Assembly (NCBI RefSeq): GCF_006517175.1
Contig: NZ_CP041186.1
Coordinates: 7,467,074 to 7,531,073 of the forward strand
Reading direction: 5' to 3'
Source of the DNA: Persicimonas caeni
GTDB taxonomy: Bacteria > Myxococcota_A > Bradymonadia > Bradymonadales > Bradymonadaceae
DNA: 64,000 nucleotides
The notes beneath the pieces were generated by a model. That model saw only the letters and a list, made by a program, of their open reading frames with translations, ran no database searches and had not been told where the DNA came from. Shown piece by piece: positions 8,290-43,875 of the stretch. A program made the translations under genes and the position numbers. Each line of letters starts with the position of its first letter. Within the stretch, counting starts at the first letter, position 1.

Positions 8290-9183
8290 TCAGTAATGCC
8301 ATGGGAACTTCGAGAAGTCCTGCGGGCGCTTCTCGACGAAGGCGTCGCGGCCTTCCTTCGCTTCTTCGGTGCCGTAGCCCAGCCGCGTCGCCTCACCGGC
8401 AAAGAGCTGCTGGCCGACCAGCCCGTCGTCGGGCAGGTTGAAGGCATACTTGAGCATGCGCATGGCCGTGGGGCTCTTCGAGTTGATCGTCTCGCCGATT
8501 TCGAGGGCGCGCTTTTCGAGCTCGGCGTGAGGGACGACCTCGTTGACCATGCCCATAAGATGCGCCTGCTCGGCGTCGTAGTTCTTGCCCAGGAAAAAGA
8601 TCTCGCGGGCGAATTTCTGGCCGACCTGACGCGCCAAGAGCGCCGAGCCGTAGCCGGCGTCGTAGCTGGCGACGTCCGGATCGGTCTGCTTGAAGATGGC
8701 GTGCTCTTTGCTCGCGATCGTCATGTCGCAGACGACGTGCAGGCTGTGCCCACCGCCGACCGCCCAACCGGGAACGACCGCGACGACGACCTTGGGCATG
8801 AAGCGGATCAGCCGCTGGACCTCGAGGATATGCAGGCGGCCGAGCTTGGCCGGATCGGGCGCGCCGTCCTCGCCGTCGTACTTGTAGCCGTCTTTGCCGC
8901 GTACCGTCTGGTCGCCGCCAGACGAAAACGCCCAGCCGCCATCTTTGGGCGACGGGCCGTTTCCGGTGATGAGCACGCAGCCCACGTCGGACCACTGACG
9001 CGCATGGTTGAGCGCCGTGTACAGCTCGTCGACCGTCTGCGGGCGAAAGGCGTTCCGCGTCTCCGGACGGTTGAAGGCGACACGCACCGTTCCCTGGTCC
9101 ACCGCGCGGTGGTAGGTGATGTCCTCGAACTCGAAGCCCTTCACGGGCTTCCAGGCAGATTCGTCAAACAGCTCCGAGACCAT
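8290..9183 (-). CDS. menB: 1,4-Dihydroxy-2-naphthoyl-CoA synthase (MenB)
   Basis: MenB closes the second ring of the naphthoquinone from o-succinylbenzoyl-CoA (Dieckmann-type cyclisation). The 297-residue crotonase-fold protein shows RVAFNRPETRNAFRPQTV near residue 35, the oxyanion-hole segment AFSSGGDQTVRGKDGY, the second oxyanion motif VVPGWAVGGGHSLHVVCD, the catalytic SYDAGYGSALLARQVGQK region, and the MenB-typical C-terminus EKRPQDFSKFPWHY. Two adjacent ATG codons lie at 9186 and 9183. The GAGAGG site ends two bases before the first and five before the second, so 9183 is better placed. It is the promoter-proximal gene of the men operon and is divergent from the polyprenyl synthase. Confidence 0.95.
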   Translation of the reverse strand: MVSELFDESAWKPVKGFEFEDITYHRAVDQGTVRVAFNRPETRNAFRPQTVDELYTALNHARQWSDVGCVLITGNGPSPKDGGWAFSSGGDQTVRGKDGYKYDGEDGAPDPAKLGRLHILEVQRLIRFMPKVVVAVVPGWAVGGGHSLHVVCDMTIASKEHAIFKQTDPDVASYDAGYGSALLARQVGQKFAREIFFLGKNYDAEQAHLMGMVNEVVPHAELEKRALEIGETINSKSPTAMRMLKYAFNLPDDGLVGQQLFAGEATRLGYGTEEAKEGRDAFVEKRPQDFSKFPWHY

Positions 9184-9237
9184 CATGTCCTCTCTGGTCG
9201 GCTAAGGTTTAAGTCTTCACTGTGGTGCAAGTATGTC

Positions 9238-40259: not shown

Positions 40260-41282
40260 ATGTCCAAACGTCGTTTCATTGCTTTGCTAGTTGCCGCCGG
40301 AGCTCTTTTTGGCGGGCTTGCCGAAGCTGCCGCGGAGAATAACGCCGCCGAGAAAGGCAAGGTCATCCACTACACGGTCAATCCGGGCGACACCCTGGGC
40401 AGCATCGCGCTGCAATTCGGGGTGGACTACGATGACGTACGTGCGTGGAACGAACTCGAGGGGCTGACTGTCGAGCCGGGCCAAGAACTCATCGTCAAGT
40501 CCGACAAAAAGCCCAAGAAGAAGCGCAGCCGTCCGCTGCCCGTCGTCCACCGGATTCGCAGGGGCGATACCTTCGAGGGGATCGCCAAGAAGTATGGCGT
40601 GAGCGTGCGGAAAGTACGCCGATGGAACCGACGCCTCAACCCGCGTCGACTGCAGATTGGCCAGCGTGTGCGCCTGTATATCCCCGGGCGCGACGGCAAG
40701 TCGGTCTCCTGGGGCTCGGCGAACCGCGGTCGGCTCTACAATGGCATCGCCCTCGAAGATAGTGAGGGCCTCAACGTACGCCACGTCTCGCGCGCCTACG
40801 GCACCAAGCGCACCATCCAGCTGCTGCGTGCGGCCGCCGCCGACGTCAAGGCGCGCTGGCCCGATGCCCCTGAGATGGTCGTGGGGGATTTGAGCTACAA
40901 GCGTGGCGGACGGATTCGCGGGCACAGCAGCCACCAATCAGGCCGCGACGCCGACGTGAGCTACTACTACCGGGGCAACGTCCAGCTGCCCAACCTGTTC
41001 GCGATGTCTTACGAGCAGATCGACGCGGTCAAAACTTGGCACTTGTTCAAGACGCTCATCGACACCGGCGAGGTCGAGTATATCTTCGTCGAGCGTGACT
41101 TGCAGCGTGCCCTGTACGAGTACGCACGATCCATTGGTTACTCCAAAGAGGCGCTCGCCCCGATTCTGCAGTACCCGCGCCCCAACCACGAGCGCGAGGG
41201 CATCATCCGCCACGTCAGCGGCCACGACACCCACTTCCATATTCGTTTCAAGTGCGGCCCCGACGATCGCAACTGCGACTGA
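40260..41282 (+). CDS. Murein endopeptidase (MepA-like) with two LysM domains
   Basis: The 340-residue exported protein has a signal peptide (cleavage near AEAAA, about residue 24), two LysM domains (about residues 36-82 and 94-142; HYTVNPGDTLGSIALQFGV and HRIRRGDTFEGIAKKYGV), and a C-terminal MepA/LAS metallopeptidase domain. The metal ligands are visible in GHSSHQSGRDADVSYYY (about residues 222-238) and in HDTHFHIRFKC near the C-terminus. MepA cleaves D-alanyl-meso-diaminopimelate cross-bridges in peptidoglycan, and LysM holds the enzyme to the wall. Wall remodelling or attack on other cells' walls are both possible. It stands alone in front of the SRPBCC gene. Confidence 0.9.
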   Translation: MSKRRFIALLVAAGALFGGLAEAAAENNAAEKGKVIHYTVNPGDTLGSIALQFGVDYDDVRAWNELEGLTVEPGQELIVKSDKKPKKKRSRPLPVVHRIRRGDTFEGIAKKYGVSVRKVRRWNRRLNPRRLQIGQRVRLYIPGRDGKSVSWGSANRGRLYNGIALEDSEGLNVRHVSRAYGTKRTIQLLRAAAADVKARWPDAPEMVVGDLSYKRGGRIRGHSSHQSGRDADVSYYYRGNVQLPNLFAMSYEQIDAVKTWHLFKTLIDTGEVEYIFVERDLQRALYEYARSIGYSKEALAPILQYPRPNHEREGIIRHVSGHDTHFHIRFKCGPDDRNCD

Positions 41283-41325: not shown

Positions 41326-41781
41326 ATGGCTTGGATTGAAGGAACCGAAGAGCAGAGCTTCGAGGTCGAAGCGGCGTATGACGACGTGGTCGACTTTTTC
41401 AGCGACCCGGCGACCTTCAAGGAGTGCTTGAGCCAGACCGAAAAGGCCGAAGAGGTCGAGCCGATGGTGTGGCGCTGGGTGCTCCAGGAGAAGTCCGAAA
41501 AGGGCATCACCTATCAGGCCGACTACACCGTCGAGTACGAGAAGGTCGACGACGAGCACTTTCGCTGGTCGACCCGCGAGGGCAACATGCGCTCGGAAGG
41601 GTTCACCAAGTTTGAAAAGCTCGGCGAAGACCGCACCAAGGTGCACTACAAAGAGACCATCGCCACCGACCTTCCGATCAACCGACTGATGGCGAAGGTC
41701 TTCAGTCCCATCGTCTCGCGCGAGATCCGCAAGGGCGTCGGCGAGTTCTTGGGCTGCGCGCGCCAGCGACTGTCGTCGTAA
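41326..41781 (+). CDS. SRPBCC (START-like) domain protein
   Basis: The 151-residue cytoplasmic protein is a small SRPBCC/polyketide-cyclase-type helix-grip fold. It has VEAAYDDVVDFFSDPATFKECL at the start, a run of long strands (TYQADYTVEYEKVDDEHFRW, then TKVHYKETIATDLP), and a C-terminal long helix (REIRKGVGEFLGCARQRL). The fold binds hydrophobic ligands such as lipids, polyketides or aromatics. AAGAGGAATTGAA before ATG 41326 gives a good start. The gene lies 25 bp upstream of the TrpB-like gene and is probably in the same operon as the pair. Confidence 0.85.
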   Translation: MAWIEGTEEQSFEVEAAYDDVVDFFSDPATFKECLSQTEKAEEVEPMVWRWVLQEKSEKGITYQADYTVEYEKVDDEHFRWSTREGNMRSEGFTKFEKLGEDRTKVHYKETIATDLPINRLMAKVFSPIVSREIRKGVGEFLGCARQRLSS

Positions 41782-41806: not shown

Positions 41807-42994
41807 ATGAGTGGCCATCCACATTCGGGACGCTTCGGCCGCTTCGGGGGGCGGTTTATCGCCGAGGCGCTCTGGACCCCCTTGCAGGAAGTCGCCGAAG
41901 CCTTCGAATCGGCCGCGGCCGACGTCGCCTTCATGGAAGACTTCGAGGCGATGCTCGACCACCGCATTGGACGGCCCACGCCATTGACCTTGCTGCGCAA
42001 TCTCTCCGACGAGATGGGCGGCGGCATGCTGTGGATCAAGCGCGAGGATCTGTGCCAGGGGGGCAACTTCACGGTCAACTTGGCGGCGGCATATGCGCTG
42101 CTGGCCAAGCGGACGGGCCGCGAGTGGATCGTCGGCGAGACGGCCACCGGCGAGTTTGGCGTAGCTCTGGCCTCGATGGGCAACGCGCTGGGCCTGAAGA
42201 CGCGCATCTTCATGGGGCGCGAGGACCGCGAGGCCGAGCCGTTGATGGTCCGACGCATGGAGGAGCTGGGCGTCGACCTCGAGACGGTCGACTCGACACT
42301 TCGCGGCCGCAAGGCGGCGTGTTCCGAGGCGTTACGGTTCTGGGCGACGCATTCGTCGACGCACTTTTATTGTCCGAGCTCGCTGGCCGCGCCCGACCCG
42401 TATCCGCGTATGAGCGCCTTCTTCTTGTCCGTCATCGGCGCCGAGACCCGCGTGCAGGTGCGCCGACGTGGGCGCACTCCCGAGTACGTGGTCGCACCGG
42501 TGGGAAGTGGCGGATATGCTGCAGGACTCTTCTCGGAGTTCGTCGACGAGGAGATGGTCCAACTGGCCGGTGTCCAAGCTGCCGGCGAGGGGCTGTCGTG
42601 CCGCCATTCGGCGAGCCTCGTCGCCGGGCGTCCCGGCGTCTTTCAGGGAACCTACTCTTTTTTACTCCAAGATGACGACGGCCAGGTCTTGTCTCCGGCG
42701 AGTATCGCCGGCGGCATGAGCGTGCCCAACGTGGGCCCGCAGCACGCACACTGGGCCGAGCAGGGCCGGGTGCATTACGTAGCCGTCACCGATGACGAGG
42801 CGATCGACGGGGTGCGAAAGCTCCTCAAATACGAAGGGATTTTGGTGTCGCTCGAATCGGGTCACGCGCTCGCTTACGCGCTCAAGCTCCTTCCCACGCT
42901 CCACGAAGACCAAGACGTCGTGGTCGGCGTAACCGGCGGGGGCATGCGCGATTTGAAGCGTCTTGCCTGCTGCGATGATTCGGGAGGGGCGTGA
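41807..42994 (+). CDS. TrpB-like protein lacking the PLP-binding lysine
   Basis: The 395-residue protein aligns along its whole length with tryptophan synthase beta: GRFGRFGGRFIAEAL at the start, WIKREDL, GETATGEFGVALASMGNALG, PYPRMSAF, LLQDDDGQ, VGPQHAHWAEQGR, VTDDEAIDG and ESGHALAYALKL. Active-site residues are changed. The family motif GAHKxN, whose Lys forms the PLP Schiff base, reads GNFTVN here (Thr89). The phosphate-binding GGGSNA is GSGGYA, GQHG is GEFG, and AGLDFP is GGMSVP. The Glu of the ETGAG motif is kept (Glu111). The protein is therefore unlikely to be a normal PLP enzyme. Its TGA overlaps the ATG of the TrpA-like gene. A moonlighting, binding or redirected catalytic role is possible. 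Confidence 0.85.
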   Translation: MSGHPHSGRFGRFGGRFIAEALWTPLQEVAEAFESAAADVAFMEDFEAMLDHRIGRPTPLTLLRNLSDEMGGGMLWIKREDLCQGGNFTVNLAAAYALLAKRTGREWIVGETATGEFGVALASMGNALGLKTRIFMGREDREAEPLMVRRMEELGVDLETVDSTLRGRKAACSEALRFWATHSSTHFYCPSSLAAPDPYPRMSAFFLSVIGAETRVQVRRRGRTPEYVVAPVGSGGYAAGLFSEFVDEEMVQLAGVQAAGEGLSCRHSASLVAGRPGVFQGTYSFLLQDDDGQVLSPASIAGGMSVPNVGPQHAHWAEQGRVHYVAVTDDEAIDGVRKLLKYEGILVSLESGHALAYALKLLPTLHEDQDVVVGVTGGGMRDLKRLACCDDSGGA

Positions 42995-43815
42995 TGAACG
43001 AACGGCTCGCGTACGTTTGCCGCAAGGCGCAAGGGCAGGGCGAACGGCTGTTGATGACCGCGATCGTCGCCGCCGACCCCTACCTCGACGCCACGCTCGA
43101 CTATATGCGGGTGCTCGCCGACGAGGGCGCCGACATGATCGAGCTGATCTTTCCGTTCTCCGATCCGACCTACCACGGCGCGGTGATCCAGCGCGCCTCG
43201 GCCCGGGCGCTTCGCGAAGAGGTGAGCTGGGACGAGATCATCGAGTTGGGTCAGCAGTTTCGGGAGACGCACGACACGCCGGTGTTCTTTTCGACCTACT
43301 ACAACCGGATTCTGGCGCGTGGGATCGACACCTTCGTCGATTGCCTGCTCGAGGCCAAGTTCGACGGCGCGATGGTCACCGACCTGCCGTGGGAGGAGGG
43401 CGAGGCGCTGCGAACGGCGTTGCGCGCCAACAATCTGGCGCTGCCGGCAGCGGTTGCCCCCACCACGACCACGGAGCGCTTCGCGCAGATCGCGGCCGGA
43501 TGCGACAGCTTCTTGATCTGGACGGGCCACTCCGGCGGGGAACCGACGATCTCGAATCAGCAGTTCGCCGAGCGAATGAAGGAGTTTCGCCAGTCGAGCG
43601 ACTCGCCCATCTTGGCGTCGATGAAGATCTCGACGGGGTACGACGCCCAGGCGGTCGCGCCGCATTGTGACGGCGTGCTCGTGGGCTCGGCGTTGGTGTG
43701 GCTCGTCGAGGGACGGGGCCCCAACTTCACCGAAAGTCTTGCCGGTTTCGTGCGCGAACTGCGGTTGGGCGTGGACGGGAAGCTCGAAACACCGGGGGAA
43801 GACGCACCGCAGTAG
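42994..43815 (+). CDS. TrpA-like protein lacking catalytic Asp60
   Basis: The 273-residue protein matches tryptophan synthase alpha over its whole (beta/alpha)8 length. In the motif around the two catalytic acids, Glu is kept (MIELIFPFSDP, Glu50) but the second acid is His61 (PTYHGA in place of PLADGP). The position is unambiguous because the spacing between the two residues equals the canonical Glu49-Asp60 spacing. The phosphate-binding end GSALVWLVE is similar to GSAIVKIIE, but the mid-barrel loop (MKISTGYDAQAV) differs from GxGISxPEQV. So indole-3-glycerol phosphate cleavage by the usual mechanism is unlikely. GGGAGGGG precedes ATG 42994, which overlaps the TrpB-like stop (TGATG). An alternative GTG lies at 42991. 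The two products presumably pair, as in normal tryptophan synthase. Confidence 0.85.
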   Translation: MNERLAYVCRKAQGQGERLLMTAIVAADPYLDATLDYMRVLADEGADMIELIFPFSDPTYHGAVIQRASARALREEVSWDEIIELGQQFRETHDTPVFFSTYYNRILARGIDTFVDCLLEAKFDGAMVTDLPWEEGEALRTALRANNLALPAAVAPTTTTERFAQIAAGCDSFLIWTGHSGGEPTISNQQFAERMKEFRQSSDSPILASMKISTGYDAQAVAPHCDGVLVGSALVWLVEGRGPNFTESLAGFVRELRLGVDGKLETPGEDAPQ

Positions 43816-43839: not shown

Positions 43840-43875
43840 AAAGACCTGGTCCACCTCGGGCCAGGTCTTTTCTTT
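43840..43875 (+). terminator. Intrinsic terminator between convergent genes
   Basis: AAAGACCTGG (43840-43849) and CCAGGTCTTT (43861-43870) form a perfect ten-base stem with an 11-base loop, followed by TCTTT. It ends the TrpA-like transcript. The MscS gene ends at 43881 on the other strand. Confidence 0.85.

Follow-up and report, generated by a model that had tools for sequence, protein, structure and literature searches.

Tryptophan synthase is a textbook case of allostery and channelling, and its catalytic residues are βLys87, αGlu49 and αAsp60 (PMC9512447). Two of these positions are altered in the Salmonella laboratory mutants βK87T (2tys) and αD60N (1a5b), each a single substitution engineered into the intact enzyme to trap ligands. 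In eudicots a β paralogue without catalysis, the TSB-like pseudoenzyme, binds α and activates it (Florean et al. 2025; PMC12727527), and this is the closest functional precedent for the locus presented here. TrpB2 and stand-alone TrpB proteins are likewise TrpB relatives with divergent partners. Literature searches found no papers on Bradymonas and tryptophan synthase or on SRPBCC proteins and tryptophan synthase.

The window, i.e. the whole stretch of 64,000 nucleotides that was analysed, spans positions 7,467,074-7,531,073 of the single 8,047,206-bp contig of Persicimonas caeni. It contains a trpB-trpA-like gene pair, here called B and A, behind a gene for an SRPBCC protein, S. The features of the locus are as follows.

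40260..41282, + strand: LysM and penicillin-insensitive murein endopeptidase (Peptidase_M74), adjoining S across the family, including genomes that have lost the pair
41326..41781, + strand: S, SRPBCC (Polyketide_cyc2/CoxG-like) protein of 151 aa, ending 25 bp upstream of B
41807..42994, + strand: B, TrpB-like protein of 395 aa, with Lys87 replaced by Thr89, phosphate loop GSGGYA, and D305 replaced by Ser305
42991..43815, + strand: A, TrpA-like protein with Glu49 kept (E50), Asp60 replaced by His61, and new invariant W176/G178/H179/S209
43840..43875, no strand assigned: hairpin AAAGACCUGGUCC-loop-GGGCCAGGUCUUU, then UUCUUU, between A and a convergent MscS-type gene

Fold and former active sites

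The first-pass annotation had described B and A as full-length, overlapping relatives of tryptophan synthase β and α, and the open reading frames, profile searches and alignments bear this out. B scores 372.8 bits against TIGR00263 trpB (E 2e-111), slightly below the cut-off of 392.5, and A scores 155 bits against TIGR00262 trpA, above the cut-off of 102. The match of B to the TrpB-related model TIGR01415 is weak (94 bits), and TrpB2 and stand-alone TrpB form another branch. A is 274 aa long with a GTG start, overlapping B by 4 nt, or 273 aa with the ATG at 42994, when the overlap is 1 nt. The AlphaFold2 model of B (pLDDT 88.6) matches solved TrpB with a Foldseek TM of 0.94 and that of A (pLDDT 91.2) matches solved TrpA at 0.85-0.87, the matches including the laboratory mutants 2tys and 1a5b. 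In these models both folds are unbroken, B having the full-length TrpB1 fold and A the TIM barrel. The likeness to canonical TrpB1 and TrpA thus extends to fold, length, gene order and overlap, at 36-45% identity for B and 29-38% for A.

The catalytic residues are a different matter. In ungapped alignment with solved TrpB chains, GAHKIN is GNFTVN in B, placing T89 opposite the Lys, and GGGSNA is GSGGYA, a change that does not by itself prove the loss of phosphate binding. The alignment of A with solved TrpA structures is also ungapped and sets ELGIPFSDPLADG opposite ELIFPFSDPTYHG, with E49 retained as E50 and D60 changed to H61; the three replacements and the retained Glu are therefore as first annotated. 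Across the clade, for which 13 non-redundant B and 14 A sequences were compared (with 21 canonical TrpB), the Lys column of B is T/S/C/A in 13/13 against K in 21/21 canonical sequences, so that every clade member covering the site lacks the Lys of GAHKxN. In A, Glu49 is Glu in 14/14 and Asp60 is His in 14/14. Conservation of Thr89 and His61, a check proposed in the first-pass annotation, holds for the absence of Lys and for the His, Thr itself being one of four residues. A Lys at a shifted position was looked for in the alignment and rejected, as none of the clade relatives has one. Changes at these positions recur in every independent clade genome that covers them, which excludes a sequencing error.

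The replacements extend well beyond the Lys. Among the 13 B sequences H86 has become F/Y, Q114 D/E, H115 F and N236 F/Y, so that D/E116 and F117 occupy the place of Gln114/His115. The βD305-βR141 pair is lost as well, the D305 column holding S/C/R/A/M/V, never E, and R141 (column 143) being also variable. Compared with the canonical enzyme, βLys87, βHis86, βGln114, βHis115, βArg141, βAsp305 and αAsp60 are thus all replaced. The K87, D305, R379 and D381 columns vary freely inside the clade; in the B pocket E109, E350 and S377 are mostly retained (E109 is E in 11/13), as is some of the phosphate loop. In A the phosphate-site glycines are changed, and W176, G178, H179 and S209 are invariant in the 14 clade sequences.

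A blind classification of columns was used to set these individual sites in context. Of 123 columns near-invariant in canonical TrpB, 56 are kept, 16 re-fixed to another residue and 51 relaxed in the clade (i.e. ~40% of invariant columns relaxed), and the corresponding 47 columns of TrpA divide into 22 kept, 5 re-fixed and 20 relaxed. Conversely, 21 TrpB and 16 TrpA columns that vary in canonical sequences are invariant in the clade. The re-fixed B columns near the PLP site include H88F, A114T, Q116D, H117F, G234S and N237F. Hand-chosen former active-site columns have a mean entropy of 0.33 in A (canonical 0.48) and of 0.77 in B (canonical 0.05), although three of the α columns (176, 178, 179) were picked after their invariance had been seen, and the blind counts are the safer measure. 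Judged by sequence, the active site of A is conserved like that of a true TrpA, yet rewritten. The annotated loss of key catalytic residues from both subunits is correct, but its outcome is unequal, with the A site rewritten yet tightly conserved and several catalytic columns of B relaxed.

These changes fall at the same two positions as the Salmonella laboratory mutants, and βK87T is the exact Lys-to-Thr change of the window. The eudicot TSB-like protein would be at most an analogue. It resembles B, which appears non-catalytic from its sequence, in being a TrpB paralogue without catalysis that partners an α subunit, but its α is a normal, active TSA, whereas A has lost the catalytic Asp. It differs from TSB at E190A and D386E, whereas B has instead lost the Lys; the equivalent of E190 (E109) is E in 11/13 clade sequences and that of D386 (D305) is never E. 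In addition, the pair described here is bacterial, and most of its carriers are without the canonical pathway to the α substrate.

Distribution, selection and origin

The pair was found in 16 of the 21 genomes of the family, which include the window's own (G000), Bradymonas sediminis (G008) and Lujinxingia vulgaris TMQ2 (G018), and is absent from five. B precedes A in every family genome with both on one contig, the open frames are ~50-70% identical across genera, and the order LysM/murein endopeptidase, S, B, A, convergent MscS channel recurs across genera, so the conservation of gene order and overlap is borne out in the clade. The complete genome G005 has endopeptidase, S and MscS at this locus, with the pair cleanly missing. 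Two clade peptides were used to scan 84,980 species, a search that sees only relatives carrying them. All degenerate pairs among its matches come from records labelled Bradymonadaceae, Lujinxingia, Myxococcales or uncultured proteobacterium, and from genomes already in the comparison. The other matches (Kiritimatiellota, Lentisphaerota, Rhodospirillales, Phycisphaerales) are canonical with Lys, and no independent Lys-less pair was present among the loci from this two-peptide scan. Nor did 379 genomes of the phylum contain a Lys-less pair of comparable score, the Lys having been checked at comparable rather than lower scores.

Purifying selection was assessed in three Lujinxingia genomes, where B has a dN/dS of 0.033-0.043, A of 0.082-0.153 and S of 0.061-0.117, comparable with the 0.044-0.135 of flanking genes in the same three genomes. 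Such values are ordinary for working genes and show purifying selection on the pair, tighter in Lujinxingia on B than on A (~0.04 vs 0.08-0.15).

Both B and the concatenated B+A form a single clade with 100/100 support, and the two genes have been passed on together as one unit. A recent duplication of the genome's own canonical trpBA is rejected on the concatenated alignment (AU p = 1.2e-5); the AU test on B alone for the same grouping is not decisive (p = 0.068). The best-placed sister is the intact trpB-trpA of G021, from another Bradymonadales family (support 78/90 and 80/88), and G057 as sister is not rejected by the AU test. G021 is also the top-scoring genome outside the family in the 379-genome phylum draw (425.7 bits, the next being 401.2). 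Its pair retains GAHKIN, GGGSNA and Asp60 and stands in the series trpD-trpC-trpF-S-trpB-trpA-protein kinase. G023 and G025 have the kinase immediately after S, and G023 has a TrpG-like gene before S. Most simply read, S already belonged to the trp operon in the ancestor of the order, and the window's family lost trpDCF and had its trpBA rewritten in place. As the sister in G021 lies with S in a working trp operon, the ancestral tryptophan synthase most likely lost catalysis where it stood.

Tryptophan genes and the SRPBCC neighbour

A second, canonical trpBA is present in the window's genome within a complete trp operon ~255 kb upstream, with intact GGAHKTN, comprising DAHP synthase, trpE, trpG, trpD, a trpCF fusion, trpB and trpA (trpA, B, C, D and F apart, the genes were named by reading their translations). 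The existence of this trpE-G-D-CF-B-A operon rejects the pair as the sole tryptophan synthase of the cell. A TrpB2-type gene lies at 6.41 Mb. All TrpA, TrpB, TrpC, TrpD and TrpF profile matches of the genome fall elsewhere, in agreement with the first-pass annotation, which had seen no other trp gene in the window.

The remaining carriers present another picture. TrpC (IGPS), TrpD and TrpF score above curated cut-offs in 1/21 family genomes, the window's own, as does canonical TrpA; canonical TrpB does so only there and, without TrpA, in G008. Many of the family genomes are incomplete drafts, and the absence of TrpC/D/F holds also at an estimated 96-99% completeness. The carriers are thus mostly without a route to indole-glycerol phosphate, and the pair persists in tryptophan auxotrophs. 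This agrees with a published genome analysis of Bradymonadales that lists tryptophan among the amino acids without complete pathways (PMC7460792), and the Bradymonadales carriers are predators (PMC7460792, PMC7188933). The lone canonical TrpB of Bradymonas sediminis (L082:8032-9306, - strand), in a genome with no canonical TrpA, TrpC, TrpD or TrpF above cut-off, could scavenge external indole.

The class holds further look-alikes of trp enzymes with lost catalytic residues. The window's genome has a second TrpCF, and another family has TrpC-like genes, which in one genus lie immediately before an S homologue. The second TrpC-TrpF fusion (G000:C1:5011202-5012569, - strand, 455 aa) lies outside the window, and its IGPS half is 39% identical to the intact one. 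It reads CEQALAF, CDDV and LGG for CKRSSPS, CKDF and ESG, and looks catalytically dead from its sequence, read at the known positions of the IGPS catalytic residues. In G030 a TrpC-like ORF without the IGPS Lys and Asn motifs (L144:7505-8488) is followed after 3 nt by an SRPBCC homologue (L144:7037-7501), and the same is seen in G036, G039 and G041; S therefore adjoins trp-like genes in more than one lineage. Another TrpC-like gene is beside a LysM/murein endopeptidase (G033, L155:7630-8457) and one is beside a TrpG-like gene (G027, L156:7823-8767 with 8629-9234).

S itself is a weak match to Pfam Polyketide_cyc2 in the window (26.5 bits, cut-off 27.4), and all 10 family members tested match at E <= 0.01. 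It lies directly upstream of B in 13 of 14 loci with the upstream flank covered; at most such loci the two genes overlap, and in the window they are 25 nt apart. The annotated co-location thus recurs widely, but it is not obligatory, as G003 has the pair without S and four family members (G004, G005, G012, G001) have S without the pair, which weakens the case for S as a required partner. The association predates the loss of catalysis, S being inside the intact trp operon of G021. The endopeptidase and S also adjoin each other without TrpBA between them, tightly in G005 and G031 and in a looser, divergent arrangement in G023 and G025; this adjacency suggests an independent role for the SRPBCC protein. 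The endopeptidase gene is likely the first of the transcription unit, and the hairpin at 43840-43875 (z = -4.1), which a consensus terminator scan missed, is with its U-rich tail probably the terminator that ends it. The operon neighbourhood offers no pathway clue beyond the upstream LysM/murein endopeptidase, and the SRPBCC-B-A unit contains no regulator gene.

What the pair may do

We are very confident that the pair no longer makes tryptophan. It is probably a two-part complex given a new job, kept, we infer, for a new reaction or for a binding or regulatory role. Our preferred reading, a retained pseudo-tryptophan-synthase with a dead scaffold in B and a re-made A, has in our judgement about an even chance of being right, and the specific division of labour between the subunits a chance a little under even. 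The ancestor of the Bradymonadaceae/Lujinxingia lineage would have lost the rest of the trp pathway, and the old trpB-trpA, already behind the SRPBCC gene in the trp operon, would have stayed put and been rewritten. B and A would still assemble like β and α, B serving without PLP chemistry as scaffold or allosteric partner. A would keep Glu50 and the barrel mouth, with His61, Trp176, His179 and Ser209 replacing the residues that held indole-glycerol phosphate, and would bind another small aromatic or phosphate ligand, which it may also cleave or isomerise and which the SRPBCC protein possibly hands over or shields. In its most explicit form, an enzyme converted in place after pathway loss in which Glu50, His61, Asp130 and His179 form a new centre in A for a substrate other than indole-glycerol phosphate, dead B is its obligatory activator and S handles a hydrophobic ligand, the proposal is tentative and rather unlikely to hold in every part. 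Counted against the preferred reading are the retained E109, E350, S377 and loop parts, with which B could hold PMP, PLP or an external aldimine. The stronger constraint on B than on A in Lujinxingia also suits B as more than a scaffold, and its absence from five family genomes makes the pair dispensable.

The main rival, which we consider unlikely though a serious contender, is a non-catalytic sensor or binding complex in which both old sites bind ligands (e.g. tryptophan, serine, indole or a prey aromatic), α-β closure signals their presence and the SRPBCC protein is a carrier. It suits carriers that are tryptophan auxotrophs and predators (PMC7460792; PMC7188933), and the laboratory βK87T enzyme, which binds external aldimines and is locked in the closed state (PMC9512447; PDB 2tys), shows that TrpB without the Lys can hold a ligand stably. 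The polar residues mostly retained in the B pocket also speak for it. However, the salt bridge between βR141 and βD305, which in Salmonella tryptophan synthase stabilises the closed state, is lost and its positions variable, and the unit lacks a regulator gene. Improbable in our view are new enzymes in both subunits, with PLP-free chemistry in B on T114/D116/F117/S234 and a new lyase in A acting sequentially via the old tunnel: the switched B residues do cluster at the former PLP site and are fixed in the clade, but K87, D305, R379 and D381, on which the old reaction centred most, vary freely. A decaying remnant of the trp operon, expressed by inertia, would account for the five genomes without the pair, including the clean absence between SRPBCC and MscS in G005, and for the relaxation of ~40% of canonical-invariant TrpB columns; it is disfavoured by dN/dS of 0.03-0.15, by frames open across genera at ~50-70% identity and by the 21 TrpB and 16 TrpA columns newly invariant in the clade, and we regard it as very improbable. 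Least probable of all is a surviving tryptophan synthase using Lys-independent PLP catalysis or rescued by another Lys, since, for all that the overall fold and Glu49/Glu109 are mostly kept, βLys87, βHis86, βGln114, βHis115, βD305 and αAsp60 are gone, nearly all carriers miss the TrpC, TrpD and TrpF that supply indole-glycerol phosphate, and the only full-pathway genome has a separate canonical trpBA.

For annotation the pair is a warning, because A passes the TIGR00262 cut-off and automatic annotation will consequently report tryptophan synthase in organisms unable to make tryptophan. Here a natural clade has changed at the sites mutated in the laboratory (βK87T, αD60N) with fold, pairing and selection persisting, and so bears on what the complex serves without its chemistry. 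The locus shows the reuse of a trp operon after auxotrophy, with the stages surviving in living relatives: intact in G021, degenerate in 16 genomes and lost in G005.
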